From contig CM075778.1 of the NCBI GenBank assembly GCA_037974665.1, positions 14,435,001 through 14,499,000 of the forward strand: DNA of 64,000 bases. Direction: 5' to 3'. The stretch comes from Ehretia macrophylla. Its lineage: Eukaryota > Streptophyta > Magnoliopsida > Boraginales > Ehretiaceae. Of this stretch, positions 28-56,903 are shown piece after piece (within the stretch, counting starts at the first letter, position 1; each line of letters begins with the position of its first letter). The notes beneath the pieces were generated by a model that ran no database searches, was not told the DNA's origin, and saw only the letters and a program-made list of their open reading frames with translations. The translations under genes were made by a program, and so were the position numbers.

Positions 28-138
28 TCACGGATAAGACTCTGGAACATAGGACTCATCCACGTAAGGCACGTTTTCTACATTCTCCTCTTCAGGAGGC
101 ACGTACCCGTAATCCTGCGAAAGTACACCTGTATGCAT
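28..138 (-). CDS. LTR-encoded acidic micro-ORF, copy 1 (M1 3' LTR)
   Basis: 36 codons from an ATG at 138 to a TGA at 28-30. I do not recognise it as a known family. The peptide is acidic and rich in Pro, Tyr and Val, with core YGYVPPEEENV and a tail PYVDESYVPESYP. The same frame is kept in seven other LTR copies here. Against the M3 copies nearly all differences are third-position synonymous changes. The ATG lies 18 nt after a conserved TATATAAG and just before a CAG|G acceptor-like site, so it could be a free-standing micro-ORF or the tail of a spliced ORF. No membrane segment or signal peptide. Function unknown. Confidence 0.5.
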   Translation of the reverse strand: MHTGVLSQDYGYVPPEEENVENVPYVDESYVPESYP

Positions 139-2197: not shown

Positions 2198-2212
2198 ATT
2201 CTCCCCTCCTTA
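2198..2212 (-). other. Polypurine tract of M1
   Basis: Minus strand AAGGAGGGGAGAAT directly abuts the 3' LTR, the expected plus-strand priming site. Confidence 0.8.
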
Positions 2213-2216
2213 AAAC

Positions 2217-2235
2217 AATTGCGTCCTCGCAATTC
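2217..2235 (-). other. Hairpin next to the M1 PPT
   Basis: Inverted repeat GAATTGCG-AGGA-CGCAATTG. It matches the P1 hairpin at 41232-41251. M3 has T/A in place of the G/C pair, so the stem covaries. Confidence 0.5.
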
Positions 2236-3010
2236 TGCATCGATCCATAGAAAAGCTCAGGTGCTAGCTCAAACATACGGATTGAAAGACCGAAAACCAA
2301 ATTCCGAATACCATTTGAGAACACCAAGCAAAACACTGATCAAGGTCGTCGACAAGAATCCCCAGTTAAGAAGCCTAAATAAGAATGGCGATTAAGAACA
2401 CCGACTAAGACTTTCGAATGAGAATCTCAAATAATTACTAAAGAAAATGCCTAACATAGATCCCGTAATAGAGCACCAACCAGGAATACCAAGTAAGAGC
2501 TTCAACAAGATCACCGAGCGAGAATACCAAATAATAATCTCAATATAAGAACTCCAGATAATACCGTATCAGAATTCCACGTAAGAATACCGCATAGAAA
2601 ATACCATAGATGATGTCCAAAGAAGTATGCCGAATAAGAATCTCCATACAGAAATCTCGAGAAAGAATGTCGTATAAAATCACCAAATAAGAATCCCAAT
2701 AATCAATGTATAGTCATAAAGTAGCTTGACCCCTAATCGGAATTCCATATACCCTAGCGTCACATACTACTTAGTCGCCAACTGATATGATGCACATGCT
2801 AACTTTAATCGTATAAGGCAAACTCTCTACTCACATTTTAGCACGTTGCACTCAAGGAGATATGATATTTAATTGGTTGAGAATAAGCAAGTTACCTTTC
2901 ACCACTGCTGCCGCCTTTGGCAATACCTACAAGTCCACTGCGTAGGCCAGAGCCTTAGCCTGAGCCCGCTGCTGCTGAGGTGTACTGCTTGCAGGTCTAA
3001 CCTGATAACC
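2236..3010 (-). repeat. Pol-free 3' internal region of M1 with degenerate short tandem repeats
   Basis: No coding frame. From about 2380 to 2720 the minus strand is a drifted array of roughly 17-22 bp units with core ATTCTTATT and GG spacers. The same kind of array occupies the same place in P1 (40850-41240). The remainder (2720-3010) is unassigned. Confidence 0.55.
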
Positions 3011-3472
3011 CTAGACTGCTGGCTGACCCGTAGAACCCTGATACCTGGGGCAATCCCTCGCCCGGTGTTGGTTACTGCCGCAACCTAAACACGTCCCTGC
3101 CTTTCTCCGACAGTCGGTCTCTAGATGGCCCTTACGTTTACAATAAACACACTGCAGCGTCGGAGCACTGACACTGCCTCCTAAAGAACCAGAAGCTGAA
3201 TAAGCAGTTGAACCAGACTGCTGTTGAGGTCTAACAACACTAGGCATGTATTGACCTTGAGATTGGGCCGGCCTGTACTGCGGCTGAGCCTGCAAAGCCT
3301 GATTCTGGGCAGCCTGCCCTGCCAGTAATTGTGCCTGACTAGCCACTAACTCAGCAATCCTCTCCATAGCTGCCCCCAATCGGTCATCACCCCTATCACG
3401 GCCTGGTGCTGCGTTACCCGGAGTCCCATCAATCATCTCAGGCCTACCTCTGGTTCTCGATCGACCGGCCAT
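3011..3472 (-). CDS. Truncated gag with two zinc knuckles (M1)
   Basis: 153 codons from an ATG at 3472, opening MAGRSRTRGRPE, the same N-terminus as M2, M3 and M4 gag (MTGRPRTRGRPE). A coiled-coil-like, Gln-rich segment (VASQAQLLAGQAAQNQALQA) follows, then a Ser-rich linker and two intact CCHC knuckles (CVYCKRKGHLETDC and CLGCGSNQHRARDC). The central gag domain with the EEWWRTV region of its relatives is missing, yet the frame is open to the stop just after the knuckles. It could still bind RNA but not form capsid alone, as in gag-derived non-autonomous elements. Confidence 0.8.
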   Translation of the reverse strand: MAGRSRTRGRPEMIDGTPGNAAPGRDRGDDRLGAAMERIAELVASQAQLLAGQAAQNQALQAQPQYRPAQSQGQYMPSVVRPQQQSGSTAYSASGSLGGSVSAPTLQCVYCKRKGHLETDCRRKAGTCLGCGSNQHRARDCPRYQGSTGQPAV

Positions 3473-3738
3473 TCTACTAATCAAAGAGTTAGCACAGTTA
3501 TAGCATGTAAACAGGTTATAAACAATTATTAACACCTAAACAACAAACTCATATAAAACACATAAACAAATTGATCACATAATCACATAAGCACTAAATC
3601 ACATAATCACTTAATCACTTAATCACTTAATCATTGAATCATATTAACACATATTTCACTTTTCTTTCACCTCATACATACTTGCATGCTTAGACCACTA
3701 CCCACATTCCGAGGATACCCCGACTGACAGCTAATCAA

Positions 3739-3750
3739 GCTCTGATACCA
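3739..3750 (-). other. Primer binding site of M1 (tRNA-iMet type)
   Basis: Minus strand TGGTATCAGAGC, complementary to the initiator-Met tRNA 3' end, five bases inside the 5' LTR. Confidence 0.9.
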
Positions 3751-4169
3751 CTTAATGTCATGCCCTAACTCGACCCCTCTTATAATTAGTCAGGACGCAA
3801 CGGAATTTCTGTAGTATAACGACAGTAAATAGGATACCGAGGCTCTAAACCAACCTCAATAGAACATCATACATCAACTCCACAAACTATACCACAAACA
3901 ACTCCTCAATAAAACAACACATACATCATAACCATATTATACAATAAACATTCCTTGTTATACGCCTCCGTTCCAACATAATACATGAACCTTAATATAC
4001 ATTGCCAAAATATTTTGATACCAACCTAGCAACCTAAACAAGACAAAGGAAAGACTACCAAGATAGCATCAACTAATTCATTATCTTCTCAACATCTTTT
4101 ACATTATGAACTACAAAGCATATAAAAGTCGACTAAGTTAATTTACAAGATAATAAAACATGTACGACA

Positions 4170-4280
4170 TCACGGATAAGACTCTGGAACATAGGACTCA
4201 TCCACGTAAGGCACGTTTTCTACATTCTCCTCTTCAGGAGGCACGTACCCGTAATCCTGCGAAAGTACACTTGTATGCAT
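4170..4280 (-). CDS. LTR micro-ORF, copy 2 (M1 5' LTR)
   Basis: 36 codons, identical to copy 1 except Gly-4 to Ser. That change also turns the acceptor-like ACAG|GT into ACAAGT. The core YGYVPPEE and tail PYVDESYVPESYP are intact. A conserved TATATAAG sits upstream at 4299-4306. Confidence 0.5.
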   Translation of the reverse strand: MHTSVLSQDYGYVPPEEENVENVPYVDESYVPESYP

Positions 4281-4677
4281 GCAATAATAGAGAGTGAGCT
4301 TATATAAAATAAGCCCAGCAAGGATCCGATAGATCTCGAGCAAGGTCTACTAAACTCCTTGGAATAATCCTTTGAGTCAGTAAACACACAATGAACATCA
4401 ATAATCATTATAAATGCAACAATAGTAATAACTGTAAACACACAATAAGGATACAATACATTTGCTGATGAAGCCCCATACACCAATTCCATGCTCAACA
4501 ACTCCTCCAAACTCAATGACACAATCCTGAGGTACCTTGACCTAAACCCACACCCCATGGCCTCTCCGCCCATGCGAGATAGGGAGTAGCCATGATAACT
4601 GTGCCCGCAACCCAGGATGCCTCCCGAGGTGACACAACATTATCAAAGCTCACAACAATGAGACTCAACATAAATAA

Positions 4678-5335
4678 ACCGAGAGATCAGCAACGAGGGT
4701 GCCCGATTCCCGTACTCAATAATCAATCCATAATATGGGAGATCAGCAACAAAAGTGCCCGATTCCCGTAATCAATAATATGGGAGATCAGCAACAAAAG
4801 TGCCCGATTCCCGTACTCAATAATCAATCCATAATATGGGAGATCAGCAACAAAAGTGCCCGATTCCCGTAATCAATAATAATCAATGAATAATATGGGA
4901 GATCAGCAACAAAAGTGCCCGATTCCCGTACTCAATAATCAATCCATAATATGGGAGATCAGCAACAAAAGTGCCCGATTCCCGTAATCAATAATAATCA
5001 ATCAATAATATAGGAGATCAGCAACAAAAGTGCCCGATCCCCGTACTCAATAATCAATCCATAATATGGGAGATCAGCAACAAAAGTGCCCGATTCCCGT
5101 AATCAATAATATGGGAGATCAGCAACAAAAGTGCCCGATTCCCGTACTCAATAATCAATCCATAATATGGGAGATCAGCAACAAAAGTGCCCAATTCCCG
5201 TAATCAATAATAATCAATCAATAATATGGGAGATCAGCAACAAAAGTGCCCGATTCCCGTAATCAATAATAATCAATCAATAATATGGGAGATCAGCAAC
5301 AAAAGTGCCTGATTCCCGTAATCAATAATAATCAA
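4678..5335. repeat. Expanded minisatellite in M1 5' LTR, about 12 units
   Basis: Twelve occurrences of the AGATCAGCAAC core, with alternating short (about 46 bp) and long (about 57 bp) units. The sister LTR has about four. The two LTRs are otherwise nearly identical, so the change in unit number happened after insertion or during reverse transcription. Confidence 0.9.
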
Positions 5336-6006
5336 TATAACATCAATATTTAATTAAACAACAAACAACTAAGTTAGATGAAAAAGTAGGCCATCCAACT
5401 TAACATGCATGAAACACGTAATATAACCCTAGTCTAACCATTAACAACTCACAATGCAATCACTCAAACCATAACCAATCAATTAAGGCTCAATCTAACA
5501 TTTTAAATAAAGACAACCTAAACTTCAAATAATCATATCTTACATTTTACTAATCCAAACAACTCCAAATCAGTTTCAAACACTCACCCGTTCAATCAAC
5601 TACATTAGCCCCCTCGGAAACAAACCAAAACACATCCAAATCATGCCCAATAACCCTAAAACCCTAGTGTATCATGGCTGAAATTTTTGGATTTTGGCAT
5701 GGACATCACAATCAAAAATTCGGCATTACAACGGCGCTACCACATAATTATCAATCTTTTAGAAATCGACGGCAATCGATTCCGATCAACACAACTCAAA
5801 ATATTCAACATTTAACAAATTAATCAACTTTAAATACCCGAAAAATAATAAATATGCTACATCCGTTCAAATCTCGTAGTATTGCATATAAATGATCCCT
5901 AGCATGCATGCAGCAATAATCTAACATCAGATTAACATTCTAACAGTTCAATAATTAATTATACGCAAAAACATAAAAATGACATTTTGAGATCTAGAAT
6001 TTTTCT

Positions 6007-21275: not shown

Positions 21276-23703
21276 TGTCACGCCCCAACTCGACCCCACC
21301 TACAATCAGTCAGGACGTAACGGAATTTCGACAGTATAACAAAAGTAATTAAGACACCGAGGCTCTAAACCAACCTCTCAGAACATCACACAACCAAACT
21401 CCACAACCATTCAATAATCAACTCCTCAATTAAGTTAACAACATACAACATAACCATATCATACAATAATCATTCTTAGTTATACGCCTCTGTTCCAACA
21501 TAATACCTTAACTTTAATATACAAAGCAAAATAGATTGAACCAACCTAGCAACCTAATCATAACAAAAGTAAGACTACTAAGTTAGCATCATTTAGTTCA
21601 TTATCTTTACTACAACTTATACAACATAAACTACAAAGTAATTAAAAGACAACTAGTTTAATATACGAAATAATAGAGTATACAACATCTCAAGCATCAA
21701 GGACAAGACTCTGGCACATAGCACTCGTCCACATACGGCACATTATCCTCTTCTGGAGGCACGTACCCGTAATCTTGCTCAAAGACACATGTAAGCATGC
21801 AATAATAGAGAGTGAGCTTTATATAAAACAAGCTCAGTGAGGATCCGATAGATCTCTAACAGTATTTACTATACTCCTTGGAAATGATCCTTTGAGCAGT
21901 AAACACACAATAAAACATCAATAACAATATAAACATATAACTATAATGACCAATCAATAAAGGATACTCTAGTTGGTGTAGCTCCAAACGCCATCACGAT
22001 CTCAACCGTTCTTCTTATAACTCCCCATTACTCACGCACCTAAGGTACCTAACTAGCCCCTCCCTCCATGACACCTCCGTTATGCGAGCTGAGGGTAGCC
22101 TCTGGTAGTCATGTCGTTATAACCCGACAGCCCGACGCTGCCCGAGAGGTAGCACACACATACCAAGACTCAGCAATAATAATAAAAATCACATCACAGG
22201 AGGACAACCTTTTCCGTTGACTATCTCCCGGTTCATCAATAATCAATCAATAATCATATTTTCATCAATATAACATCAAGTAATCAATTAAAACAACAAA
22301 CAACTAAGTTAGATGACAAAGTAGGCCATCCAACTTAACATGTGTTAAACACGTAATCTAACCCTAGTCTAACCATTAACAACTCACAATTCAATCACTC
22401 AAACACCACCCAATCATCTAAAGGCATAACTCAATATTTTAAAGAAAGACAACCTAAACTTCAAATAATCATATCTTACATTCTGCTAATCCAAACAACT
22501 CCAAATCAGTTTCTATCACTCACCTATTCGAACAACTACATTAGCCCTCTCGGAAACCAACCAAAACACATCAAAATCAAGCCCAACAACCCTAAAACCT
22601 CAATGCACCTAGACTGAAATTTCTGGATTTTCACACAAACATCGTAATCAAAAATTCGGCATTATAATAGTGGTACCACGTAATTAACAAACTTTTAGAA
22701 ATCGACGGCAATCGATTCTAACCATTACAACTCAAAATATTCAACAATTTGCCAAACTATCAACTTTAAATACCCAAAAATAAAAATTTATACTACAACG
22801 GTTCAAATCTTATAAGAATACATATAATCGAACCTTAGCATGCAGTGAGCAATAATATAACTTCAAATTAACATTCTAACGGTTCAATATTCAATTATAT
22901 GCAAAAACATAAAAAATGACTTTTGAGATCTAGAATTTTTCTCTCACCTTTGATGTGTTTTGAAGCTACAAAGATGCTCAATGGATGCTCAAGAGGTGGA
23001 ATCAAGCTTTGGTTGATGGAAATTGGCCTTTAATTGTAACTTCTAATGAAAATTTGCCTTTGAAAACTTGAAGAAAACCTTGGGTTTTCTCTCTAATGGC
23101 TCTCGGCCATGTAGGTGTAAAATGAGTGTGTTTTTGTGTTGTGCAAGTGTGTGTTGATGCATATTAAGTAAAGGTCAACAATTTAAAAGAAAGTCAATTA
23201 GTTTTATTTAGTCTTTTAATTCTATTTTTAATCTTTTAATTCTTTTCTTGACTATTTCTTGCTCAACTATTAAATTGACAACTAAATTAATTCTAGACAA
23301 TATATTTTAGGTGACAAATAGTGTTACATTAAAATAGTTTCACCCGAGTCGGCTTAACTCGTTTTCTTGCAAAAGAAAGTGTAAAAACCTTTAAAATTCC
23401 AAAACCGATTCCAAATACATTTTAATCAAACATTAATACCCGAGGACTAGGTTTTAAAATGTTTAAAACACCCCTGTAAAAATTTTAGCGGACAGGTGTT
23501 CAAAAATACTATTTACCAAAACCGATGATAAAATTTCTAATTCTGTTTTTTATGAAAATTTCATGAATGCACACTTAGCATGTATTAGGAGTATTAATCA
23601 CATATTTAGCACATTCTAAGTCATATAGCACATAAATAGGTCAATTCACACAAAATGAAGTAAAACACGCAAATCGGGATAAAACAAAATATGGGGTCTC
23701 ACA
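21276..23703 (-). repeat. 3' LTR of M2 (2428 bp)
   Basis: TGTCACGCC...GTCTCACA in plus sense. Carries the micro-ORF (21697-21798), conserved TATATAAA (21818-21825), the GGCAGCGTCGGGCT module (about 22100-22155) and a donor-like site (22948/22947). Confidence 0.92.
21697..21798 (-). CDS. LTR micro-ORF, copy in M2 3' LTR
   Basis: 33 codons, core YGYVPPEEDNV then PYVDECYVPESCP. Compared with M1/M3 it lacks three codons (an in-frame 9-nt indel after NV). Against M4 left LTR it has three synonymous changes and one replacement (Cys/Ser) over the last 25 codons. The acceptor-like CAG is CAT here. Confidence 0.5.
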   Translation of the reverse strand: MLTCVFEQDYGYVPPEEDNVPYVDECYVPESCP

Positions 23704-28709: not shown

Positions 28710-30176
28710 TGTCAATCCCCAACTCGACCCCACCTACAATCAATTAGGACGCAATGGAATTTCGCCAGTATAACGACAGTAATTAAGACACCGAGGCTCT
28801 AAACCAACCTCTCAGAACATCACACAACCAAACTCCACAACCATTCAACAATCAACTCCTCAATTAAGTTAACAACATACAACATAACCATATCATACAA
28901 TAATCATTCTTAGTTATACGCCTCCGTTCCAACATAATACCTTAACTTTAATATACAAAGCAAAATAGATTGAACCAACCTAGCAACCTAATCATAACAA
29001 AAGTAAGACTACTAAGTTAGCATCATTTAGTTCATTATCTTTACTACAACTTATACATCATAAACTACAAAGTAATTAAAAGACAACTAGTTTAATATAC
29101 GAAATAATAGAGTATACAACATCTCAAGCATCAAGGACAAGACTCTGGCACATAGGACTCGTTTACATATGGCACATTATCCTCTTCTGGAGGCACGTAC
29201 CCGTAATCTTGCTCAAAGACACATGTAAGCATGCAATAATAGAGAGTGAGCTTATATAAAACAAGCTCAGTGAGGATCCGATAGATCTCTAACAGTATTT
29301 ACTATACTCCTTGGAAATGATCCTTTGAGCAGTAAACACACAATAAAACATTAATAACAATATAAACATATAACTATAATGACCAATCAATAAAGGATAC
29401 TCTAGTTAGAGTAGCTCCAAACGCCATCACGATCTCAACCGTTCTTCTTATAACTCCCCATTACTCACGCACCTGAGGTACCTCACTAGCCCCTCCTTCC
29501 ATGACACCTCCGTCATGCGAGCTGGGGGTAGCCTCTAGTAGTCATGCCGTTATCAACCCGACAACCCGATGCTGCCCGAGAGGTGGCACACACATACCAA
29601 GACTCAGCAATAATAATAAACATCACATCACATGAGGACAACCTTTTCCATTGACTATCTCCCGGTTCATCAATTATCAATCAATAATCATATTTTCATC
29701 AATATAACTTCAAGTAATCAATTAAAACAACAAACAACTAAGTTAGATGACAAAGTAGGCCATCCAACTTAACATGCGTTAAACACATAATCTAACCCTA
29801 GTCTAACCATTAACAACTCACAATTCAATCACTCAAATACCACCCAATCATCTAAAGGCATAACTCAACATTTTAAAGAAAGACAACCTAAACTTCAAAT
29901 AATCATATCTTGCATTCTACTAATCCAAACAACTCCAAATCAGTTTCTATCACTCACCCATTCGAACAACTACATTAGTCCTCTCGGAAACCAACCAAAA
30001 CACATCAAAATCAAGCCCAATAACCCTAAAACCTCAATGTACCTAGGCTGAAATTTCTGAATTTTCACACAAACATCGCAATTAAAAATTCGGCATTATA
30101 ACAGCGCTACCATGTAATTAACAAACTTTTAAAAATCGACGGCAATCGATTCCAACCATTACAACACAAAATATCA
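28710..30176 (-). repeat. 5' LTR of M2, truncated
   Basis: Aligns to the 3' LTR until about 30176 (ACACAAAATAT), where unrelated sequence starts. About 0.96 kb including the donor and core promoter candidate is gone. It keeps the micro-ORF (29131-29232). Confidence 0.88.
29131..29232 (-). CDS. LTR micro-ORF, copy in M2 5' LTR
   Basis: 33 codons, core YGYVPPEEDNV, tail PYVNESYVPESCP (one Asp to Asn). TATATAAG upstream at 29251-29258. Confidence 0.48.
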   Translation of the reverse strand: MLTCVFEQDYGYVPPEEDNVPYVNESYVPESCP

Positions 30177-30676: not shown

Positions 30677-33015
30677 TGTCACGCCGTAACTCGACCCCAC
30701 CTACGATCAGTCAGGAAGCAACGTAATTTCAGCAGTATAACGACAGTAAATAGGATACCGATGCTCTAAACCAACCTCAATAGACATCATACATCAACTC
30801 CACAAACCATACAACAAACAACTCCTCAATAAAATAACAACATACATCATAACCATATTTACAATAAACATTCCTCGTTATACGCCTCCATTCCAATATA
30901 ATACATGAACCTTTAATATACATTACCAAGAACATATTGAGCCAATCTAGCAACCTAACCATAAACAAAAGAAAGGCTACTAAGACAGCATCAACTAATT
31001 CATTAACTTTTCAACATCTTATACATATAAACTACAAAACATATAAAAATCTACTAATTTAATTTACAAGATAGGAAAACAGTACAACATCAAGGATAAG
31101 TCTCCGGAACATAAGACTCATCCACATAAGGCACATTTTCCACATTCTCCTCTTCAGGAGGCACGTACCCATAATCCTGCGAAAGTACACCTGTAGGCAT
31201 GCAATAATAAAGAGTGAGCTTAGCAAGGATCCGATAGATCTCTACAGTATACACTATGCTCCTTGAATTTAATCCTTTGAGTAAGTAAACACACAATAAC
31301 ATCAATAATACTATCGTCACATAATCTATAATGACCATTCAATAAGGATACACTAGTTGGTGTAGCTCCAATCACCATCACGATCATAACAGCCTTCTTA
31401 TGACTCCCATAAACTCACGCACCCGAGGTACCCCAATAACCTCTCCCTCCATGACACCTCCGTCATGCGAGCTGGAGGCAGTCTCTGGTAGTCATGCCGT
31501 TATCAACCCGACAGCCCGATGCTGCCTGAGAGGTGGCACACACATACCAAAGACTCAACAATAATAATAAACATCAATCATTCACAGGAGGACAGTCTAG
31601 CAGAACTGCCTACCTCCCGACATCAATCATCAATCAATAATCATCAATCATCATCAATAATCATATTATCATCATCAATAATCATATTATCATCATAATA
31701 ACATCAATTAATCAATTTAACAACAAATAACTAAGTTAGATGACAAAGGAGGCCATCCAACTGAACATGCATTAAACACACAATCAAACCCTAGTTTACC
31801 CATCAACAACTCACAATTTAATCACTCAAACCACACCCGATCAACTAAGGCTCAAATCAATAATTTAAAGAAAGATAACCTAAACTTCAAATAATCATAT
31901 CTTACAATCTACTAATCCAAACAACCCCAAATCAGTTTCAAACACTCACCCATTCGATCAACTACATTATCCCTCTCGGAAACCAACCAAGACACCTCAA
32001 AATCAAGCCCAACAACCCTAAAACCTCAAGGCACCTAGGCTGAAATTTCTGGATTTTTACCCAAACATCGTAATCGAAAATTCGGCATTATAACGGCGTT
32101 ATCACATAATTAACAAACTTTTAGAAATCGACGGCAATCGATTCCAACCACAACAACTCAAAATAATCCTCAAAAAGCCATTCTATCAACTTTAAATACC
32201 CGAAAATAAATAATTTAATGAGTTTTGAGATCCAGAATTTTTCTCTCACCTTTGATGCGATAAAAGCCTAGGAATGCGTGCAATGCGTTCCCAACAAACG
32301 GAATCCAACTCGGCACAAATTTCTACGGACAAAAACTAGGTTTTTCTTTGAAAAATTGCTTTGAAAACCTTGAAAACTCTTTTCTCTTTTCTCTCTTCTT
32401 CCTCTCGGCAATGTGTGTGTAAATAAAGGTGTTTTTGTGCTTTGCTTGTGTGTGTTGGTGATATATGCATGAAAGTCAACATTTAATGAAAGTCAAAGTT
32501 GATTTAACTTAGTATTTTTAGTGTTTTCTTGACTTTAAATGCATTTTATTGATCACCAAAGTTCAAAACAATTATTCAACACCCAAGATAGCTCAAGTGG
32601 GTTATTTTTAGGTGACAAGAAGTTTTACAATCGAACAATTTCACCCGAGTCGACTTAAAACTCGATTTTCGCAAAAGTCGGTGTAAAAACCCTAATAAAT
32701 TCTTAAGCCGATTTTAAAATTGTTTTAATCAAACACAGGTCTATTAAAGTCCGTGGACTAGGTCTAGAAGGGTTAAAAAGACCAGTTTCAAAATTTTAGC
32801 GGACGTGTTAAGAAAATTCTATTCACTGAAAATCGACGATAAAATTTCTGACTCCGCTTTTTATGAAAATCTCATAAATGCACATTTAGCATGTTCTAGG
32901 AGTATTGATACTAAAATTACCACATTCTAAGTCACATAACACATAGACAGGTTAATTCATGCAAAACGAGATAAAGCATGCAAAACGAGATAAGATAGAA
33001 AAGTGGAGTTTCACA
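30677..33015 (-). repeat. 3' LTR of M3 (2339 bp)
   Basis: Pairs with 38016-40377. A short deletion near 31220 removes the conserved TATATAAG present in the partner. Donor-like site 32250/32249. Confidence 0.94.
31090..31200 (-). CDS. LTR micro-ORF, copy in M3 3' LTR
   Basis: 36 codons, core YGYVPPEEENV, tail PYVDESYVPETYP. Against M1 it shows seven synonymous third-base changes and one replacement (Ser/Thr) over the last 28 codons. The deletion upstream leaves the frame open further, to an ATG at 31338 (82 codons), a secondary effect in this copy only. Confidence 0.52.
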   Translation of the reverse strand: MPTGVLSQDYGYVPPEEENVENVPYVDESYVPETYP

Positions 33016-33029
33016 TTCTTCCCCCCTTA
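33016..33029 (-). other. Polypurine tract of M3
   Basis: Minus strand TAAGGGGGGAAGAA abutting the LTR. Confidence 0.88.
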
Positions 33030-33031
33030 AA

Positions 33032-33052
33032 GAAATTTCGCCCTCGAAATTC
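33032..33052 (-). other. Hairpin next to the M3 PPT
   Basis: GAATTTCG-AGGG-CGAAATTTC, overlapping the pol 3' end. Confidence 0.5.
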
Positions 33053-34896
33053 TTACTTGATGTACTGAACAAATCTGGGTACTGCTTCTGCATCTGATCC
33101 CGTATCTCCCAAGTAGCTTCTTCGATACCGTGATGCTTCCACAACACCTTAACCATCGGAATCTTCTTCGACCTCAACTCTCGTTCCATCTGATCAAGAA
33201 TACGAATCAGACGCTCGTCATAAGTCAGATTCTCACGAAGCTGTAACGGCTCTGGCTCAAGAATATGAGAAGGATCCGGATTATATTTTCGCAAATTTGA
33301 CACGTGAAATACATCGTGGACATTAGAGAAGTTCTCCGGTAAAACCAACCGATATGCCAACTTACCAACCCTGCCGGTAATCTGAAACGGCCCAACAAAT
33401 CTCGGACTTAGCTTTCCACCTTTACCATAATGAGCAAACCCCTTACAAGGAGACAATCTCAAGAAAACCCTATCTCCAACTGCAAACTCCAAGTCCCGAC
33501 GACGCTTATCAGCATAACTCTTGAATCTACTCTGCACCGTAAGCATTCTCTGCCTGATCAACTGAACATTCTCAATCTTCTCAAGAAGCTCTGGTATGAT
33601 AGTTGGATCAATAGTCTTCATCTTCCCTACCTTGTCCCAATATAAAGGTGAATAGCACTTACGACCGTAAAGAGCTGCGAAAGGTGTCATCCTAATAGTA
33701 GCTTGATAACTATTGTTATAGGCAAACTCGGCAAGTGGTAGATGTTTCTCCCAGTTCTTCCCAAAATCCAGAACACAAGCCCTAAGCATATCTTCCAGAA
33801 TCTGAATAGTCCACTCAGACTGACCGTCGGTCTGTGGATGATACGCGGTACTGAAGTTCAACTGAGTACCCAAGGTCTCTTGAAGTTTCTCCCACAAACG
33901 AGAAGTAAATCGAGGATCTCGATCTGAGACAATACTAGATGGAATCCCGTAAAGTCTAACAACCTGATCTAAATAAAGATTCGTCAACTTGGTAACCTTA
34001 TCTCCTATCCTCATCGAAATAAAATGAGCTGTCATCGTCAAACGATCCACGACAACCCAAACTGCATCGTTACCCCTCGGTGTTCTAGGCAAACCAGTGA
34101 TGAAGTCCATCGTAATATGCTCCCATTTCCATTCTGGTATAGCCAACGGCTGAAGCAAACCTACAGGTCGTTGATGCTCAGCTTTCACCCTCTGACAAGT
34201 CAAACATCTAGATACAAATTGAGCAACCTCCCTCTTCATATTATTCCACCAATAATGTTGCTTCAAATCCCGATACATCTTGGTTCTACCAGGATAAATA
34301 GTGTACTTAGAATTATGAGCTTCTTCCAGAATACCTCGCCTCAAGTCCGGTTCATCGGGAACACAAACCCTGTTCTGAAACCGAAGAATACCATCCTCAT
34401 GCAGTTTAAAGTCAGACTGATCATCTGTGATCTGATCCTTGATCTTCTGAAGTTTAACATCCAGCTGCTGAGCTTCTCTGATCTGAGACAGCAATAAAGG
34501 TTGAATACGGAGATGTGAACACATCACCCCAACTTGAGTTAACTCCGGTCTCCAATAAGCGAATTCCTCAAGAATTTCCCATTTCTTGACAGCCAAACAA
34601 GCAACACTCGTCTTCCGGCTGAGAGCATCTACTACAACATTTGCCTTGCCAGGCAGATAATTGATAGAACAATTATAATCTCCAAGAAGCTCCATTTACC
34701 TCCGCTGGCGCATATTCAACTCCTTCTGTGAGAACAAGTACTTCAGATTCTTATGATCAGTGAAAATCTCGAACTTACTGCCCCACAGATAATGACGCCA
34801 CTTCTTCAGTGCGAAGACAACTGCTGCCAACTTAAGATCATGAGTCGGATAATTTACCTCATAAGGCTTCAACTTCCTGGAAGCAAAGGCAATAAC

Positions 34897-35718
34897 TCAG
34901 CCATCTTGTATAAGAACACATCCCAAGCCCTCCTTGGATGCATCGCTGTAAATAACCATATTATCAGTCCCCTCTGGTAGAGCAAGTATTGGAGCACTAG
35001 TCAACCTCTTTTTCAACTCTTGAAACCCACTCTCACACTTCTCATCCCAAGCAAAGATAGTCTGCTTCTGAGTTAACTTAGAAAGTGGCCCAGCAATCTT
35101 CGAGAAGTCCTTTACAAACCTACGGTAATAACCCGCCAAGCCAAGAAAGCTACGGACCTCAGAAATATTCTCTGGCCCTTTCCAAGACATCACCGATTCA
35201 ATCTTAGTGGGATCTACAGAAATACCACTCTGTGTGATAACATGGCCAAGAAAAGATATGTGTTGCAGCCAAAATTCACATTTGCTAAACTTGGCAAACA
35301 ACTGATGCTCCTGCAGCTTCTGTAAGACAAGCCGTAGATGTTGCTCGTGCTCCGATTCAGATTTAGAATAGACCAAGATATCATCAATAAAGATTACCAC
35401 GAACTGGTCTAAATACGGCTGAAAAACCCGATGCATAAGGTCCATGAATGCTGCTGGTGCATTAGTTAATCCAAAGGGCATAACAACAAACTCATAATGC
35501 CCATACCGAGTCCTGAAGGCAGACTTTGGAACATCCTCCGTACGAATCCAAAGCTGATAATACCCCTGCCTCAAATCAAATTTAGAATAGACTTTGGCTT
35601 CCTGAAGTTGATCGAACAACTCGTCAATCAGTGGCAAAGGATATTTGTTCTTGATGGTCACCTGATTCAAACCACAGTAATCAATACACAACCTCAAGGT
35701 ACCATCCTTCTTCTTCAC
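34897..35718 (-). pseudogene. M3 reverse transcriptase and RNase H start
   Basis: 273 codons: [45 protein letters not shown] (catalytic pair present), the thumb and connection ([22 protein letters not shown]), then [13 protein letters not shown]. Ends at a stop after QDG; RNase H continues in the same frame to the stop at 34696. Confidence 0.92.
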
Positions 35719-36769
35719 AAATAAAACAGGAGCTCCCCAAGGTGAAAAACTCTACTGAATGAATCCTTCTCCAATAACTCCTGCAACTGAGTCTTCAACT
35801 CCTTCAACTCAGCTGGTGCCATCCGGTACGCTGATTTAGAAATAGGTTGAGTACCAGGAATAAGATTGATCACAAACTCCACATCTCTCTTTGGCGATAA
35901 CCCTGGCAACTTCTCGGGAAATACATTGGGATATTCCCGAATAATAGGGACTTCCTCAAGGTGCAACTTATCAGATGGCTTGTTGATCAAATAAGCTAGA
36001 TAACCCGAACACCCCTTACTCACCAACTTAACAGCTTTAGTTGCTGAGATAACAAAGCTCGTCTTTGCACCCCGGTTCCCTACTACCTCAATTACTGGTT
36101 GATTTGGCAAACGAAACTGTACTACCTTGGTCCTACAGTTCAACTGGGCATCATACTTAGAAAGCCAATCCATACCCAAGATAACATCATACCCCCGGAT
36201 AGGAAATAAGTAAGGTCCGAAGGAAAATTATGCCCCTTAACATGTATTATACAATCCTTACATACTACGACAGTCACATACTTATCAGTCAAAGAGGTAC
36301 TAATCTCAACCACATAAGGCAATCTTTCAGGTTGCAAATTAACACATTGCACACACGCAGGAGTAATGAAAGAATGTGTAGCACTAGAATCAATCAACAC
36401 TTTAACAAGTTGATCAAGTATAAGGAAGTTACCTTCCATAACTGCAGTCTCCTCAGGCATCTCCTTTAAGTCAACTGCATAGGCCTGAGCCTGAACCCGC
36501 TGCTGCTGAGGTGCACTGGCCGCAGGTCGGCCCTGATAACCCTGAGTCGTTGTCCGACCCTCAGTCCTCGAATACCTAGGGCAATCCCTCGCCCGGTGCT
36601 GATTATTGTCGCAACCTAAACACATCCCTGCTTTCACCCTGCAATCGGCCTCTACATTCCCCATGCGCTTGCAGTGTGTACACTGCGGTGATGATGCACT
36701 AACAATGCCCCTGGATGAACCAGAAGCTGAAGGAACAGCTGAACCAGTCTGTTGCTGAGGCCTTACCAA
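35715..36769 (-). pseudogene. M3 zinc knuckles, protease and linker
   Basis: 36140-36769 has two knuckles: the first is CTHCKRMGNVEADC with Asn in place of His, the second CLGCDNNQHRARDC is intact. The protease motif is [11 protein letters not shown], Gly of the Asp-Ser-Gly triad replaced by Ser. A 1-bp loss near 36210 shifts to 35715-36179 ([15 protein letters not shown] through the RT linker), and a second shift near 35760 enters RT. Confidence 0.87.
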
Positions 36770-36913: not shown

Positions 36914-37737
36914 CTACTGTACTGGAGGCCTATACATACTCTGCTGATAGTGCGGCTGATACGGCCTCTTACTGGGCTGACTAGAAACAAGCTGATCCCC
37001 CTTCCTCTTCTCTAGTCTAGAAGCTGCCTCAAAGGCCTCAGTGAATACATCATACCGATTCAGAGCCATCACATCCTGAATCTCGGGCCTCAACCCTAAC
37101 ATGAATCTACGAGTCCTCCGCTCCTCATCAGCCACATACTCCGGTGCATAATGGGACAATCGAGTAAAGGTGGCCTCATACTGTGCCACTGAAGCATCTC
37201 CCTGCACTAAGGCTAGAAACTCTGCCTTTCTCCGTTCCCTCACAATCCTCGGGACATACTTTGCCCGAAAAGCCAACAGAAAGGCACCCCAAACATACGG
37301 AATACCCTGAGTCGCCCAGCTAGTCCTTACCGTGCGCCACCACTCTTCTGCCTCATCATCTAACAAGTACACGGCAAAAGAGACTTTCTGCTCATCGGTA
37401 TAGTCAAAAGGATCATAAATCTTCTCCAACTTGCTAATCCATGCCTCAGCCTTCCTATCATCCGGCTCCCCCTAAAATCTCGGTGGATGATACCCTAAGA
37501 ACTCTTTCAGGGTACCACACCCGTGGTTTCCACCCTGCACATTCAACAATTGAGCCTGCCAAGCCTGAGTCTGGGCAGCCTACCCTGCTATCAACTGAGC
37601 TTGACCAGCCACTAACTCAGCAATCCTCTCCATAGCTGCCCCCAAACGGTCTCACCCCTATCACGGCCCGGTGCCGCAATACCAGGAGTCTCATCAGTCA
37701 TCTCAGGCCTACCTCTGGTTCTCGGTCTGCCCGTCAT
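36914..37737 (-). pseudogene. M3 gag
   Basis: ATG at 37737 (MTGRPRTRGRPEMTD); a 1-bp deletion near 37650 breaks the N-terminal part. From 37429 a 171-codon frame carries the gag core: DDEAEEWWRTV, FLLAFRAKYVPR, LALVQGDASVAQYEATFTRLS and RFMLGLRPEIQD. The Gln/Tyr-rich linker to the knuckles is broken near 36889. Confidence 0.9.
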
Positions 37738-37997
37738 TCTACTTATCAAAGAGTTAGCACAGGTTATAGCACGTAAATAGGTTATGAACAACTATTAGCA
37801 CATAAATAACAAAGTCATATAAAACACATAAACAAATTGATCACATAATCACAAAAGTACTAAATCACATAATCACTTAATCACCTAATCATTTAATCAT
37901 ATTAATACATAGATCACTTTTCTTTCTTTTCATACACACTTTCATGCTAAGACCATTACCCACATTCCGAAAATACCCCGGTTGACAACTAACATAC

Positions 37998-38009
37998 GCT
38001 CTGATACCA
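37998..38009 (-). other. Primer binding site of M3
   Basis: Minus strand TGGTATCAGAGC, six bases from the LTR edge. Confidence 0.92.
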
Positions 38010-38015
38010 CTTAAA

Positions 38016-40377
38016 TGTCACGCCCCAACTCGACCCCACCTACGATCAGTCAGGACGCAACGAAATTTCGGCAGTATAACGACAGTAAATAAGATACCGA
38101 GGCTCTAAACCAACTTCAATAGACATCATACATCAACTCCACAAACCATACAACAAACAACTCCTCAATAAAATAACAACATACATCATAACCATATTAT
38201 ACAATAAACATTCATTGTTATACGCCTCCATTCCAACATAATACATGAACCTTTAATATACATTACCAAGAACATATTAAGTCAATCTAGCAACCTAATC
38301 ATAAACAAAAGAAAGGCTACTAAGACAGCATCAACTAATTCATTAACTTTTCAACATCTTATACATATAAACTACAAAGCATATAAAAATCTACTAATTT
38401 AATTTACAAGATAGGAAAACAGTACAACATCAAGGATAAGTCTCCGGAACATAAGACTTATCCACATTAGGCACATTTTCCACATTCTCCTCTTCAGGAG
38501 GCACGTACCCGTAATCCTGCGAAAGTACACCTATAGGCATGCAATAATAGAGAGTGAGCTTATATAAAATAAGCCCAGCGAGGATCCGATAGATCTCTAC
38601 AGTATTCACTATGCTCCTTGGATTTAATCATTTGAGTAAGTAAACACACAATAACATCAATAATACTATCGTCACATAATCTATAATGACCATTCAATAA
38701 GGATACACTAGTTGGTATAGCTCCAATCACCATCATGATCATAACAGCATTCTTGTGACTCCCATAAACTCACGCACCCGAGGTACCCCAATAACCTCTC
38801 CCTCCATGACACCTCCATGCGAGCTGGAGGCAGTCTCTGGTAGTCATGCCGTTATCAACCCGACAGTCCGATGCTGCCCGAGAGATGGCACACACATACC
38901 AAAGACTCAACAATAATAATAAACATCAATCATTCACAGGAGGACAGTCTAGCAGAACTGCCTACCTCCCGACATCAATCATCAATCAATAATCATCAAT
39001 CATCATCAATAATCATATTATCATCATCAATAATCATATTATCATCATAATAACATCAATTAATCAATTTAACAACAAATAACTAAGTTAGATGACAAAG
39101 TAGGCCATCCAACCGAACATGCATTAAACACACAATCAAACCTTAGTTTACCCATTAACAACTCACAATTCAATCACTCAAATCACACCCGATCAACTAA
39201 GGCTCAATTCAATAATTTAAAGAAAGATAACCTAAACTTCAACCAATCATATCTTACATTCTACTAATCCAAACAACCCCAAATCAGTTTCAAACACTCA
39301 TCCATTCGATCAACTACATTAGCCCTCTCGGAAACCAACCAAGACACCTCAAAATCAAGCCCAACAACCCTAAAACCTCAAGGCACCTAGGCTGAAATTT
39401 TTGAATTTTCACCCAAACATCATAATCGAAAATTCAGTATTATAACGGAGTTACCACGTAATTAACAAACTTTTAGAAATCGACGGCAATCGATTCCAAC
39501 CACAACAACTCAAAATAATCCTCAAAAAGCCATTCTATCAACTTTAAATACCCAAAAATAAATAATTTAATGAGTTTTGAGATCCAGAATTTTTCTCTCA
39601 CCTTTGATGCGATAAAAGCCTAGGAATGCGTGCAATGCGTGCCCAACAAGCGGAATCCAACTCGGCACAAAGTTCTACGGACAAAAACTAGGTTTTTCTT
39701 TAAAAAATTACTTTGAAAACCTTGAAAACTCTTTTCTCTTTTCTCTCTTCTTCCTCTCGGCAATGTGTGTGCAAATGAAGGTGTTTTTGTGCTTTGCTTG
39801 TGTGTGTTAGTGATATATGCATGAAAGTCAACATTTAAAGAAAGTCAAAGTTGATTTAACTTAGTATTTTTAGTGTTTTCTTGACTTTAAATGCATTTTA
39901 TTGATCACCAAAGCTCAAAACAATTATTCAACACCCAAGATAGCTCAAGTGGGTTATTTTTAGGTGACAAGAAGTTTTACAATTGAACAATTTCACCCGA
40001 GTCGGCTTAAAACTCGATTTTCGCAAAAGTCGGTGTAAAAACCCTAATAAATTCTTAAGTCGATTTTAAAACCGTTTTAATCAAACACAGGTCTATTAAA
40101 GTCCGTGGACTAGGTCTAGAAGGGTTAAAAAGATCAGTTTCAAAATTTTAGCGGACATGTTTCGAAAATACTATTCACTAAAAATCGACGATAAAATTTC
40201 TGACTCCGTTTTTTATGAAAATTTCATGAATGCACATTTAGCATGTTCTAGGAGTATTGATACTAAAATTACCACATTCTAAGTCACATAGCACATAGAC
40301 AGGTTAATTCACGCAAAACGAGATAAAGCACGTAAAACGAGATAAGATAGAAAAGTGGGGTTTCACACTTATTGTAA
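38016..40377 (-). repeat. 5' LTR of M3 (2362 bp)
   Basis: TGTCACGCC...TTTCACA. Contains TATATAAG (38559-38566), the module (about 38830-38885), an ATC-rich low-complexity tract (38970-39060) and a donor-like site (39602/39601). Confidence 0.95.
38430..38540 (-). CDS. LTR micro-ORF, copy in M3 5' LTR
   Basis: 36 codons, core YGYVPPEEENV intact, tail PNVDKSYVPETYP with two replacements (Tyr to Asn, Glu to Lys) relative to its sister LTR, so these arose after insertion. Confidence 0.48.
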   Translation of the reverse strand: MPIGVLSQDYGYVPPEEENVENVPNVDKSYVPETYP

Positions 40378-42348: not shown

Positions 42349-44033
42349 TGTAACGCCCAAACTCGACCCCTCCTATGATCAGTCAGGACGCAATAGAATT
42401 TCGACAGTATAACGATAGTAACTTGGATACCGAGGCTTTAAACCAACCTCTTCGTAACTCATACAACCAACTCCACAACAATTCAACAATAAAACAACAC
42501 AACCACCATATACAATAAACATTCTTTTACCATTGCATCCATAGGTTATACGCCTCCGTTCCAAGATCATACATTTACTATATAACATACATTTCCAAAA
42601 TAGATTATAACCAATCTAGTAGCCTAACCATATTCCAAAACAAGACCACTAAACTAGCAACATTTAATCAATTATCTTTACAACATCTTATACATCATAA
42701 ACTTCTAAGTAAATACAAATCAACTAGTTTTAATATACAAGATAACAAAATAGTACAACATCAGATATCAAGGACAAGACTCTGGCACATAGGACTCATC
42801 CACATATGGCACATTATCCTCTTCTGGAGGCACGTACCCATAATCTGGATTGGTAACACCTGTATGCATGCAATAATTGAGAGTGAGCTTATATAAAACA
42901 AGCCCAACAACCCTAAAACCTCAATGCACCTAGGCTGAAATTTTTGGAATTTCACCTTGATATCACAATCAAAATTTCGGTATTACAACACTACTACCAC
43001 ATATTTAACAAACTTTACAAGTTAACAACAATCGATTCCAACCACCACAACTCCAATTATTCAACAAATAGACAACAACTCAATTTTAATACCCGAAAAA
43101 TAAAAATTCATGCTACAACTGTTCAAAACTGATATAAACACATATAATCAATCCTTAGCATATACTGAGCAATAATATAATATCAATTTAACATTTCAAT
43201 GGCTAAAAAATTCGATTATATGAATTAACATAAAAATGGAATTTTGAGATCTAGAATTTTTCTCTCACCTTTGATGTGTTATGAAGCTAGAAAGATGTGC
43301 AATGGATGCCCAACAAGTAGAATCAAGCTTTGGATGACAAGATTTGGCTTTGAATTGTAACTTTTAATGAAAAATTACCTTGAAAACTTGAAGAAAAATC
43401 GTTCATTTTCTCCTATGGTGCTCTCGGCCTTGTGTGTGTGTGTCAATTTGTTTTGTGAGCTTTTAATGTGTGTTGGTGACATATATACAAAGGTCAAAAA
43501 AAATAAAAGAAAGTCAAAGTTGACACTTAGTTTATTTTTAGTATTTCTAGTCTTTTAATTCTATTTTTGACTATTTCTTGCTCAAAACATTAAATTGACA
43601 CTTAGACTATTTCTAGATAATTGATTTTAGGTGACAAAGAGTTTTACACGCAAACATTTTCACCCGACTCGGTTAAAAACTCGATTTTCGCAAAAGAAAG
43701 TGTAAAAACCTTCAAAATTCCAAAGTCGATTTAAAATCCATTTTAATCAAACACGTGTCTATTAATATCCGAGGACTAGGTTTTGAAACACTTAAAACAC
43801 CCGTGTAAAAATTTTAGCGGACGTGCGTCCAAAATACTATTCACAAAAACCGTCAATAAAATTTCTGATTCTGTTTTTTATGAAAATTTCATGAATGCAC
43901 ACATAGCATGTAATAGGAATATAAATCACATATTTAGTGCATTCTAATTTATATAACACATAAACATGTCATATCATGCAAATCGAGGCAAAGACACGCA
44001 AATCGAGATAAAGACGAAAACTGAGGTTTCACA
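42349..44033 (-). repeat. 3' LTR of M4 (1685 bp, central block missing)
   Basis: Homologous to the M2 LTR at both ends, but jumps from the micro-ORF/TATA block (42900) straight to the ACCCTAAAACCTCAATGCACC block, so the about 0.75 kb with the module is absent. Both M4 LTRs share this. Donor-like site 43269/43268. Confidence 0.92.
42768..42869 (-). CDS. LTR micro-ORF, copy in M4 3' LTR
   Basis: 33 codons, core YGYVPPEEDNV, tail PYVDESYVPESCP; the segment before the core is VTNP rather than VLSQ. TATATAAG at 42888-42895. Confidence 0.52.
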   Translation of the reverse strand: MHTGVTNPDYGYVPPEEDNVPYVDESYVPESCP

Positions 44034-51549: not shown

Positions 51550-53236
51550 TGTAATGCCCCAACTCGACCCATCCTATGATCAGTCAGGACGCAACGAAAT
51601 TTCGGCAGTATAACGATAGTAACTTGGATATCGAGGCTCTAAACCAACCTCTTCGCAACTCATACAACTAACTCCACAACAATTCAACAATTAAACAACA
51701 CAACCACCATATACAATAAACATTCTTTTACCATTGCATCCATAGGTTATATGCCTCCGTTCCAACATCATACATTTACTATATAATATACATTTCCAAA
51801 ATAGATTATAACCAATCTAGTAGTCTAATCATATTCCAAAACAAGACCACTAACCTAGCAACATTTAATCCATTATCTTTACAACATCTTATACATCATA
51901 AACTTCTAAGTAAATACAAACCAACTAGTTTTAATATACAACATAACAAAAGAGTACAACATCAGATATCAAGGACAAGACTCTGGCACATAGGACTAGT
52001 CCACATATGGCACATTATCCTCTTTTGGAGGCACGTACCCGTAATCTGGATTGGTAATACCTGTATGCATGCAATAATTGAGAGTAAGTTTATATAAAAC
52101 AAGCCCAACAGCCTTAAAACCTCAATGCACCTAGGCTGAAATTTTTGGACTTTCACCTCGACATCACAATCAAAATTTCGGCATTACAACATTACTAACA
52201 CATATTTAAAAAAATTTTACAAGCTAATAGGAATCGATTCCAACCACCACAACTCCAATTATTCAACAAATAGCCAACAACTCAATTTTAATACCTGAAA
52301 AATAAAAATTCATGCTACAACGGTTCAAAACTGATATAAACACATATAATCCATCCTTAGCATCTACTGAGCAATAATATAACATCAATTTAACATTTCA
52401 ACGGCTAAAAATTCGATTATATGAATTAACATAAAAATGGCATTTTGAGATCTAGAATTTTTCTCTCACCTTTGATGTGTTATGAAGCTAGAAAGATGTG
52501 CAATGGATGCCCAACAAGTAGAATCATGCTTTGGATGACAAGATTTGGCTTTGAATTGCAACTCTTAAGGAAAAATTACCTTGAAAACTTGAAGAAAAAT
52601 CCTTCCTTTACTCCTATGGTGCTCTCGGCCTTGTGTGTGTGTGTGTGAGTGTGTTTTGTGAGCTTTTAATGTGTGTTGGTGACATATATGCAAAGGTCAA
52701 ACAAAATAAAAGAAAGTCAAAGTTGACACTTAGTTTATTTTTAGTATTTCTAGTCTTTTAATTCTATTTTGACTATTTCTTGCTCAAAACATTAAATTGA
52801 CACTTAGACTATTTCTAGATAATTTATTTTAGGTGACAAAGAGTTTGACACGCAAACATTTTCACTCGACTCGGTTAAAAACTCGATTTTCGCAAAAAAA
52901 AAGTGTAAAAACCTTTAAAATTTCAAAGTCGATTTAAAATTCGTTTCAATCAAACATGGGTCTATTAATATCTGAGGACTAGGTTTTGAAACACTTAAAA
53001 CACCCGTGTAAAAATTTTAGCGGACGTGCGTCCAAAATACTATTCACAAAAACTGTCGATAAAATTTCTGATTTCGTTTTTTATGAAAATTTTATGAATG
53101 CATACATAGCATGTAATAGGAATATAAATCACATATTTAGCACATTCTAATTCATATAACACATAAATAGGTCATATCACGCAAATCGAGGCAAAGACAA
53201 GCAAATCGAGATAAAGACGAAAACTGAGGTTTCATA
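51550..53236 (-). repeat. 5' LTR of M4 (1687 bp, central block missing)
   Basis: TGTAATGCC...TTTCATA, one transition from the canonical TTTCACA end. Donor-like site 52470/52469. Confidence 0.92.
51969..52070 (-). pseudogene. LTR micro-ORF, broken copy in M4 5' LTR
   Basis: Same frame as 42768-42869 but GAG to TAG inside PYVDES truncates it, and PPEE reads PPKE. Confidence 0.5.
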
Positions 53237-53241
53237 CGTGT

Positions 53242-56200: not shown

Positions 56201-56893
56201 AGTAGAATTGGAACAGAAGCTTGAAGAGAATGTGCTAGTTGATAAACCTTTGGAATGACTATGTGCATTGTGTGCTTTTCATGAACATGGATGTTGTTAG
56301 GGATATTGCGTTTAATTGAAGACTGTTTATTTTGTTGTTGTAAATGACCCCTGTTGTAATTTGGGGTCTAATTTTGGCTTGTACTAACTATAAATCGAAC
56401 GAACTCTTTTATTTCGGTCGTTTGCTTTCATCATTATGAATAGTAGTTATCATTAGGTGTTTAAACCAATTGGTGAAGAATCAACTAAGTTAGCCCTACC
56501 TATACTCATTAAGGTACTCATTTGTAAGCTAAATGATAATAGGTACTTGCATAAATAGGAATTTGACAAATAAATGGGATGTAGTTATCGTGATAGGCTT
56601 ATTAATCCAAATAGAACTTTCAAGATAAACTAGCGGGGATATCAATTGATGATGAAACAAGAGTTTTAGTTGTAAGCAAATTAAAGATTCAAAATTTTGA
56701 GTTGTTCTTGAAAATAGGTCAAATCAAAGATCCTTAATACAGTCGTTATACTGTCGGTTTTCTGAAGAACTTTTGGAGTTCTAGGCTAATGAATAAGCAT
56801 TAATTATAGGTAAATGGTTAAAGTCGTAAAATAATGATAATGATTTAGGTCATACCCTAGTCTAGCCTCTATAGGTTGGGTTGGGGCGTGACA
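53242..56893 (+). repeat. P2 5' LTR, main part
   Basis: Pairs with 59375-62997. CA-rich leader (53915-54186), donor AGAG|GTGAGGG (54382/54383), module near 55797-55840, GTAC box 55901-55916, acceptor TTACAG|G (56196/56197). A tract of GCGAA(A/T)GC-type short repeats follows at 55965-56008. Confidence 0.9.
56196..56258 (+). other. Short acidic ORF tail after the acceptor (P2 5' LTR)
   Basis: 20 codons: GEVELEQKLEENVLVDKPLE then TGA; no in-frame ATG just upstream. The 3' LTR copy at 62301-62363 has an internal TAG. Confidence 0.35.
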
Positions 56894-56903
56894 CCTATTA
56901 GAA

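Follow-up and report, generated by a model that had tools for sequence, protein, structure and literature searches.

In plants, long terminal repeats (LTRs) are generally regarded as gene-free regulatory DNA. The locus described here raises the question of whether an LTR can also carry a peptide-coding sequence under selection, and, if so, from which RNA such a peptide might be read. The window—the whole stretch of 64,000 nucleotides from contig CM075778.1 of Ehretia macrophylla that was analysed—contains four related LTR types, M1 to M4, each of which features the same short ORF on the minus strand. This micro-ORF occurs in eight copies, designated left (L) and right (R) within each type, and specifies an acidic peptide of 33–36 residues with repeats of YV(P/D)xE. 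The ORF itself, its position, and its coding-type substitution pattern are direct observations.

The micro-ORF and the elements that carry it

The micro-ORF lies in the sense strand of the element, with its stop 413–421 nt upstream of the LTR 3′ end. It consists of 36 codons in M1 and M3 and of 33 codons in M2 and M4, and is intact in seven of the eight copies (Table 1). All eight copies retain the ATG, the stop, and an interval of 24 nt between ATG and codon 9; the sole between-type indel is one of 9 nt. The original prediction had given the coordinates of eight copies in two length classes exactly 9 nt apart, with a common in-frame ATG and stop, the core YGYVPPEE(E/D)NV, and a shared tail PYVDESYVPES(Y/C)P. 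The coordinates, the minus strand, the length difference, the ATG and stop, the core in the form DYGYVPPEE, and the tail are borne out, and the copy at 51969 carries a premature TAG. Two other origins of the frame were tried and rejected. The plus frame is open, too, but the changes land on the first codon positions of that frame, which is not what an antisense gene would give. A C-terminal pol tail entering the 3′ LTR is ruled out by the M3 pol frame, which ends approximately 1.7 kb before the ORF.

Table 1. Positions of the micro-ORF copies and of associated features in the window
Feature	Position	Strand	Remarks
Micro-ORF, M1 left copy	28..138	-	36 codons + stop, intact
Micro-ORF, M1 right copy (5′ LTR of the element)	4170..4280	-	intact
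Micro-ORF, M2 left copy	21697..21798	-	33 codons + stop, intact
Micro-ORF, M2 right copy	29131..29232	-	intact
Micro-ORF, M3 left copy (3′ LTR)	31090..31200	-	intact; TATA box gone through private deletion
Micro-ORF, M3 right copy (5′ LTR)	38430..38540	-	intact
Micro-ORF, M4 left copy (3′ LTR)	42768..42869	-	intact
Micro-ORF, M4 right copy (5′ LTR)	51969..52070	-	broken: TAG at alignment codon 28
TATA box TATATAA within imperfect palindrome TGGGCTT..AAGCTCA	38555..38577	-	begins 26 nt before ATG
M3 leader, micro-ORF ATG to A of gag ATG (804 nt)	37737..38540	-	39 AUGs after +33; PBS-like TGGTATCAGAGC at +532
Predicted RNA hairpin over last codons (M3 right copy)	38434..38463	-	similar in M3 left; weaker in M1, M2, M4
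M3 3′ LTR	30677..33015	-	with 38016–40367 flanked by target-site duplication CTTAT
M3 5′ LTR	38016..40367	-	partner of 30677–33015
M4 3′ LTR	42349..44031	-	with 51550–53234 flanked by target-site duplication CGTGT
M4 5′ LTR	51550..53234	-	partner of 42349–44031
M3 integrase frame	32932..34695	-	H2C2, SH3_Tf2-1; rve below cut-off; weak Chromo match (E 0.0021)
M3 reverse transcriptase frame	34897..35751	-	RVT_1, RT_RNaseH_2

The carriers of the micro-ORF are minus-strand Ty3/gypsy elements, belonging to the plant chromoviruses as judged by protease, reverse transcriptase (RT), RNase H, and integrase together with an SH3-like C-terminus. In five interior frames of M2, M3, and M4, the domains RVP_2, RVT_1, RT_RNaseH_2, Integrase_H2C2, and SH3_Tf2-1 score above the Pfam cut-off and rve scores below it. 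The Chromo match in the M3 integrase tail, with 18.4 bits, stays under the cut-off of 25.1, and none is found in the M2 tail. Further features of plant chromovirus LTRs are present: an LTR pair with TG..CA ends, a 5-bp target duplication—read by eye for both M3 and M4—and a primer site. The latter, TGGTATCAGAGC, which we take to be a Met-tRNA primer site, follows the LTR in M1, M3, and M4 and bears one mismatch in M2. The M3 integrase frame extends approximately 84 nt into the 3′ LTR (32932–33015). The RT of the element shows at most 76% identity among the 120 matches listed of 7997 scored proteins, and many of the named ones are from plants.

In M1 (2200–3755), only approximately 1.5 kb separates the LTRs, and the gag frame passes from the N-terminus straight to zinc-knuckle-like motifs; the element looks non-autonomous, yet both of its micro-ORFs are intact. 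The right M1 LTR contains overlapping direct repeats with units of approximately 115 nt (4670–5336), to which a single stretch of the left LTR aligns at several positions. The right M2 LTR (28710–30174) matches its partner only up to 30174, just before the start of the M3 element; it may have been cut by the M3 insertion or before it. The M4 LTRs lack, at 42895, approximately 740 bp just upstream of the TATA box relative to M2 (21836–22574). An unrelated M4 U3 was ruled out, as the sequence abutting the TATA box is 74–80% identical to the more distal U3 of M1, M2, and M3: by this comparison, the M4 U3 is homologous but shortened. The M2 stretch is bounded by the similar motifs TGGGCTTG.TTT and TGAGCTTGTTTT, which points to short repeats as the endpoints of a deletion. 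Apart from these elements, the window features a pair of 3.6-kb direct repeats (53236–56895 and 59368–62999) of 92% identity, in which only one ORF of at least 90 aa starting with ATG, GTG, or TTG occurs over the whole stretch (130 aa); they are probably LTRs of another family.

Substitution pattern of the micro-ORF

Changes fixed between the types, which precede insertion, were kept apart from differences within LTR pairs, which follow it. In codons 8–37, the fixed changes number 1, 2, and 12 at codon positions one, two, and three, respectively, with 30 sites each. Third positions change at the flank rate (12 of 30, with 9.8 expected). First and second positions together carry 3 changes at 60 sites versus 19.5 expected from the flank—approximately one sixth of the flank rate—and versus 13.4 expected from the lower leader rate, corresponding to Poisson probabilities of 4.9e-6 and 7.9e-4. 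The reference rates are those of the following LTR sequence (+112 to +520; 133 of 409 sites) and of the leader, available in single copies (+545 to +800; 57 of 256 sites). The 13 type-level changes in codons 9–36 comprise 10 synonymous changes and 3 replacements, with an expected synonymous fraction of 0.24 under the flank spectrum (P = 8e-5) and of 0.32 with CpG ×5 (P = 1.2e-3). A codon model of the eight copies yields, for codons 9–36, an internal-branch and, hence, pre-insertion dN/dS of 0.07 (likelihood ratio test against 1, p = 1.6e-5); for codons 2–36, the internal value is 0.26 (p = 0.0012).

Since the windows used for these tests were picked after seeing the data, every 84-nt window in every frame was scanned from +1 to +800. 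The top-scoring window is the micro-ORF in its own frame, and its score is attained by 74 of 5000 block shuffles. In a wider scan, the next independent windows fall in gag—in frame, allowing for a 1-nt deletion in M3R—and are a built-in positive control. A yardstick is provided by the pol frames of M2, M3, and M4: in these single copies, post-insertion noise included, 15–24% of third positions and 4–15% of first and second positions differ, which is the same kind of codon periodicity as in the micro-ORF. The signature of purifying selection put forward in the original prediction is supported, among the eight copies in the window, by the internal dN/dS and the comparison with the flank as well as by the all-frame scan and the persistence of the pattern at sites unpaired in a predicted RNA fold.

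Several finer points of that prediction need qualification. Between M1L and M3L, the last 28 codons do differ by seven synonymous changes and one replacement. The three synonymous changes and one replacement ascribed to M2 versus M4 exist as well, at codons 10, 24, and 27 and at codon 29, but each is polymorphic within one LTR pair and does not separate the types. As no fixed difference separates M2 from M4 in codons 9–37, this pair is to be read as conserved, not as synonymous, and the signature rests mainly on M1, M3, and the internal branches. Replacements had been considered private to single LTRs and, hence, later than insertion. Some are private, also in copies not named before (G4S at 4170 and C29 at 21697), but those at codons 2, 4, 6, 7, 8, 21, 34, and 35 are type-level changes. 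Relaxation after insertion is a trend only, with a terminal-branch dN/dS of 0.32 (p = 0.08 against 1 and p = 0.10 against the internal branches); differences within LTR pairs, 5 synonymous and 9 replacement or stop, form a neutral-looking mix whose contrast to the internal changes is not significant.

The constraint does not cover the entire frame. Codons 2–7 differ between types almost exclusively by replacements, with codon 5 as the sole synonymous site, so that constraint begins at approximately codon 8 or 9. Divergence in codons 1–7 is 25–42% in five of the six type comparisons and 5% for M1 versus M3. The non-coding stretch between the TATA box and the ATG is as conserved as the ORF, with a divergence of 0–6%. 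The surrounding LTR had been said to drift freely, which agrees with the between-type indels of the flank, mostly out of frame, but not with this stretch.

Coding constraint on the micro-ORF is thus rated likely for the four LTR types of this one window, on the basis of their sequences. The rival view that the first 111 nt are conserved for a non-coding reason, of which two RNA hairpins are the strongest candidate and a downstream promoter element and an invariant splice donor are others, and that the third-position bias is a by-product is unlikely, although it has evidence of its own. The RNAalifold consensus of the eight copies features two hairpins with 21 pairs; all five type-level changes at paired columns keep the pairing, one pair being changed on both sides from U-A to C-G; the hairpin of M3 is stable, with z values of −4.6 and −4.2; and the stretch from TATA box to ATG is conserved without coding. 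However, the structure was derived from the same sequences that test it, and, in M2R and M4R, the folding of the hairpin does not surpass that of shuffled sequences. RNA structure may be an added layer and would be no substitute for coding, because the 42 columns of codons 9–36 that are left unpaired show an equally strong periodicity (7 of 14 third positions versus 1 of 28 others, p = 8e-4), because paired columns are not significantly more constrained than unpaired ones (5 of 42 versus 8 of 42 changed, p = 0.27), and because shuffles match the covariation: 41 of 500 reach both its score and the percentage of paired cells, 266 of 500 the number of double-change pairs, and 460 of 500 the pair types. 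It is very improbable that a single short stretch, singled out by eye, has few first- and second-position changes among four related LTR types by chance. This view can draw on the small number of type-level changes, on the scan-wide shuffle rate, and on M2 and M4, which differ by 18.5% over the rest of R/U5 versus no fixed difference in codons 9–37 and, under chance, may share the stretch through recombination. It is opposed by the likelihood ratio test of dN/dS and by the identity of the top scan window, which is the own frame of an ORF kept in four types with its ATG, its stop, and a 9-nt indel.

Predicted RNA start and possible modes of expression

In seven of the eight copies, the 300 nt upstream contain a single TATAWAW, a TATATAA whose first base lies 26 nt (27 nt in M2L) ahead of the A of the ATG; M3L has lost it. 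The motif is taken as the core promoter because it is the only TATAWAW at a place common to all four types; in M3R and M4R, it is the sole one in the whole LTR, and the M1R, M2L, and M4L LTRs carry further ones at other places. In the palindrome around it, TGRGCTT..AAGCYCA (38555–38577 and equivalents), the varying position is complementary in M1L (G-C) and in M2 (A-T). Plant TATA boxes lie at about −29 to −36 in barley, at approximately −30 in Arabidopsis, and at −34 in maize, sorghum, rice, and wheat (PMC10762323). Combined with the TATA–ATG spacing of 26–27 nt, these values place the predicted cap 3–10 nt 3′ of the A of the ATG and, hence, inside the ORF, which makes ordinary initiation at the micro-ORF ATG doubtful: the ATG would be included only with an unusually close RNA start, and then without a leader. 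A CA whose A is that of the ATG is present in all seven TATA-bearing copies, at −26 or −27, and a second CA, within the ORF at −34 or −35, in six of these seven. The ATG is preceded by T at −3 and followed by C at +4 in all eight copies, a poor AUG context by the common rule. Gag starts at +804 to +816 from the micro-ORF ATG, with 35–39 AUGs between +33 and gag.

The explanation favored here, tentatively, takes the micro-ORF for a genuine, extremely short coding region at the U3/R border, kept by purifying selection during the active life of the elements, with a leaky first uORF as its most likely role. It would be the 5′-most reading frame of the element RNA, adjoining the TATA box, and ribosomes entering at the cap would sometimes initiate at its poor-context AUG and produce the acidic, repeat-bearing peptide. 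Its synthesis may delay or sort ribosomes before the AUG-crowded leader of approximately 810 nt, which would be a cis effect on Gag output; alternatively, a small trans-acting peptide may be released. The transcription start, translation, and every functional step in this scheme are predicted, and translation of the LTR peptide is only putative because the ATG lies approximately at the predicted RNA start.

Next after the leaky first uORF ranks an accessory microprotein encoded by the 3′ LTR or reached by splicing, a doubtful reading in which the peptide comes mainly from other RNAs: a spliced subgenomic RNA or one that starts earlier in U3, with a normal leader. Retroviral accessory genes overlap the 3′ LTR, and the complete ORF including its ATG should lie within the genomic RNA there, so that this reading would account both for the coding constraint and for an ATG that is left out when the cap has its usual spacing from the TATA box. 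A candidate acceptor AG occurs just after the TATA box (TATATAAG; TATATAAAG in M2L) in six of the seven box-bearing copies, M4R being the exception. However, the first codons contain no clear common acceptor: the ACAG of M1L, M3L, and M4 is missing from M2, the AGs before codon 9 are shifted by one base between M1/M3 and M2/M4, and the candidate AG next to the presumed TATA box belongs to the box itself. Less probable still is that splicing yields a gag mRNA with the first 11 codons as its 5′ exon and that the remaining micro-ORF is coded by the unspliced RNA. A donor-like GGGTACGT is found at +33 from the ATG on the minus strand in all eight copies (e.g., 38508). This donor, GG/GTACGT (codons 11–13), is invariant in the eight copies and has the best provisional score of all donors in each of the four leaders under a plant donor matrix; if spliced to the AG immediately preceding the gag ATG, it would yield M..DYG-(R)-MTGRPRTRGRPE in frame and remove the 35–39 intervening AUGs. 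The acceptor before gag ranks 3rd of 43, 3rd of 38, 5th of 35, and 2nd of 38 AGs in the four leaders, and all four joins are in frame. Yet the matrix-based splice scores are provisional, an in-frame match has a chance of one in three, and the constraint, absent from codons 2–7, lies mostly downstream of the donor, where this reading leaves it unexplained past codon 11.

Relatives, known systems and meaning

Searches for relatives returned none. A degenerate DNA pattern matched 37 viral contigs, none of which continues like the micro-ORF past the searched core; the pattern spanning TATA box to ATG has no match in viral contigs and the core pattern none in genome contigs. Alignment searches with the peptide gave no relative in viral or genome contigs, searches of a protein set that includes plant proteins gave no candidate, and the RT search of the viral contigs gave no match. 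The absence of the micro-ORF says little, because the DNA collections are viral or prokaryotic by description and frames this short are seldom predicted. In Pfam, one of the four peptides has a single match, below the cut-off; PDB matches of the peptides are weak, with a best E of 0.25; and Rfam at gathering score gives no match in the window. An LTR-encoded micro-ORF of plant elements was not found described in the titles and abstract openings among the literature matches listed.

Among known systems, the 5′aORFs of plant Tekay chromoviruses are similar in being an extra conserved frame upstream of gag (PMC11728184). The sunflower Tekay 5′aORF comprises 400 aa (search minimum 300), is proline-rich, and carries a predicted nuclear localisation signal (PMC11728184). 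The micro-ORF differs from these frames in size, composition, and place, having 33–36 acidic residues and lying within the LTR itself, and is not the large separate ORF upstream of gag that defines them. A closer likeness in selection is seen with the conserved peptide uORFs (CPuORFs) of plants, which are short first leader frames conserved in peptide sequence and not just in presence (PMC5902531). Here, too, a short frame ahead of the main ORF shows selection of the coding type. Unlike CPuORFs, the micro-ORF lies outside a host gene, has its AUG at the predicted cap, and is a putative uORF. With the pararetrovirus shunt leader, it shares a first short ORF and a long AUG-rich leader in the RNA of a reverse-transcribing element (PMC5902531). 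A shunt hairpin of this kind was looked for and rejected: no long hairpin is common to the four leaders, the outer domains differ between predicted folds, and the leader fold, compared with shuffles for M3R only, has a z of −2.5. In the pararetrovirus shunt, a long stable hairpin of the leader follows within a few nt of the sORF stop; the known shunt sORFs are, to our knowledge, mostly shorter and not selected for peptide sequence. MMTV sag and lentiviral nef are, like the micro-ORF, protein-coding sequence in an LTR, but these much longer genes lie in the U3 region of retroviruses of animals.

A wider and rather unlikely picture would be that of an LTR retrotransposon family that encodes a selected acidic micropeptide across the U3/R border, so that new insertions and solo LTRs carry both promoter and peptide start, and in which the element may switch between the peptide, from unspliced RNA, and an N-terminally extended Gag, from RNA spliced at the donor within the ORF. 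If the selected peptide is real, each element would carry it twice, and it would also be retained in solo LTRs; annotation would miss it, since it is shorter than the usual ORF cut-offs. Promoter and coding constraint would be coupled in the same bases, and the micro-ORF would open a way to study how chromoviruses translate Gag from an RNA whose leader contains at least 35 AUGs.
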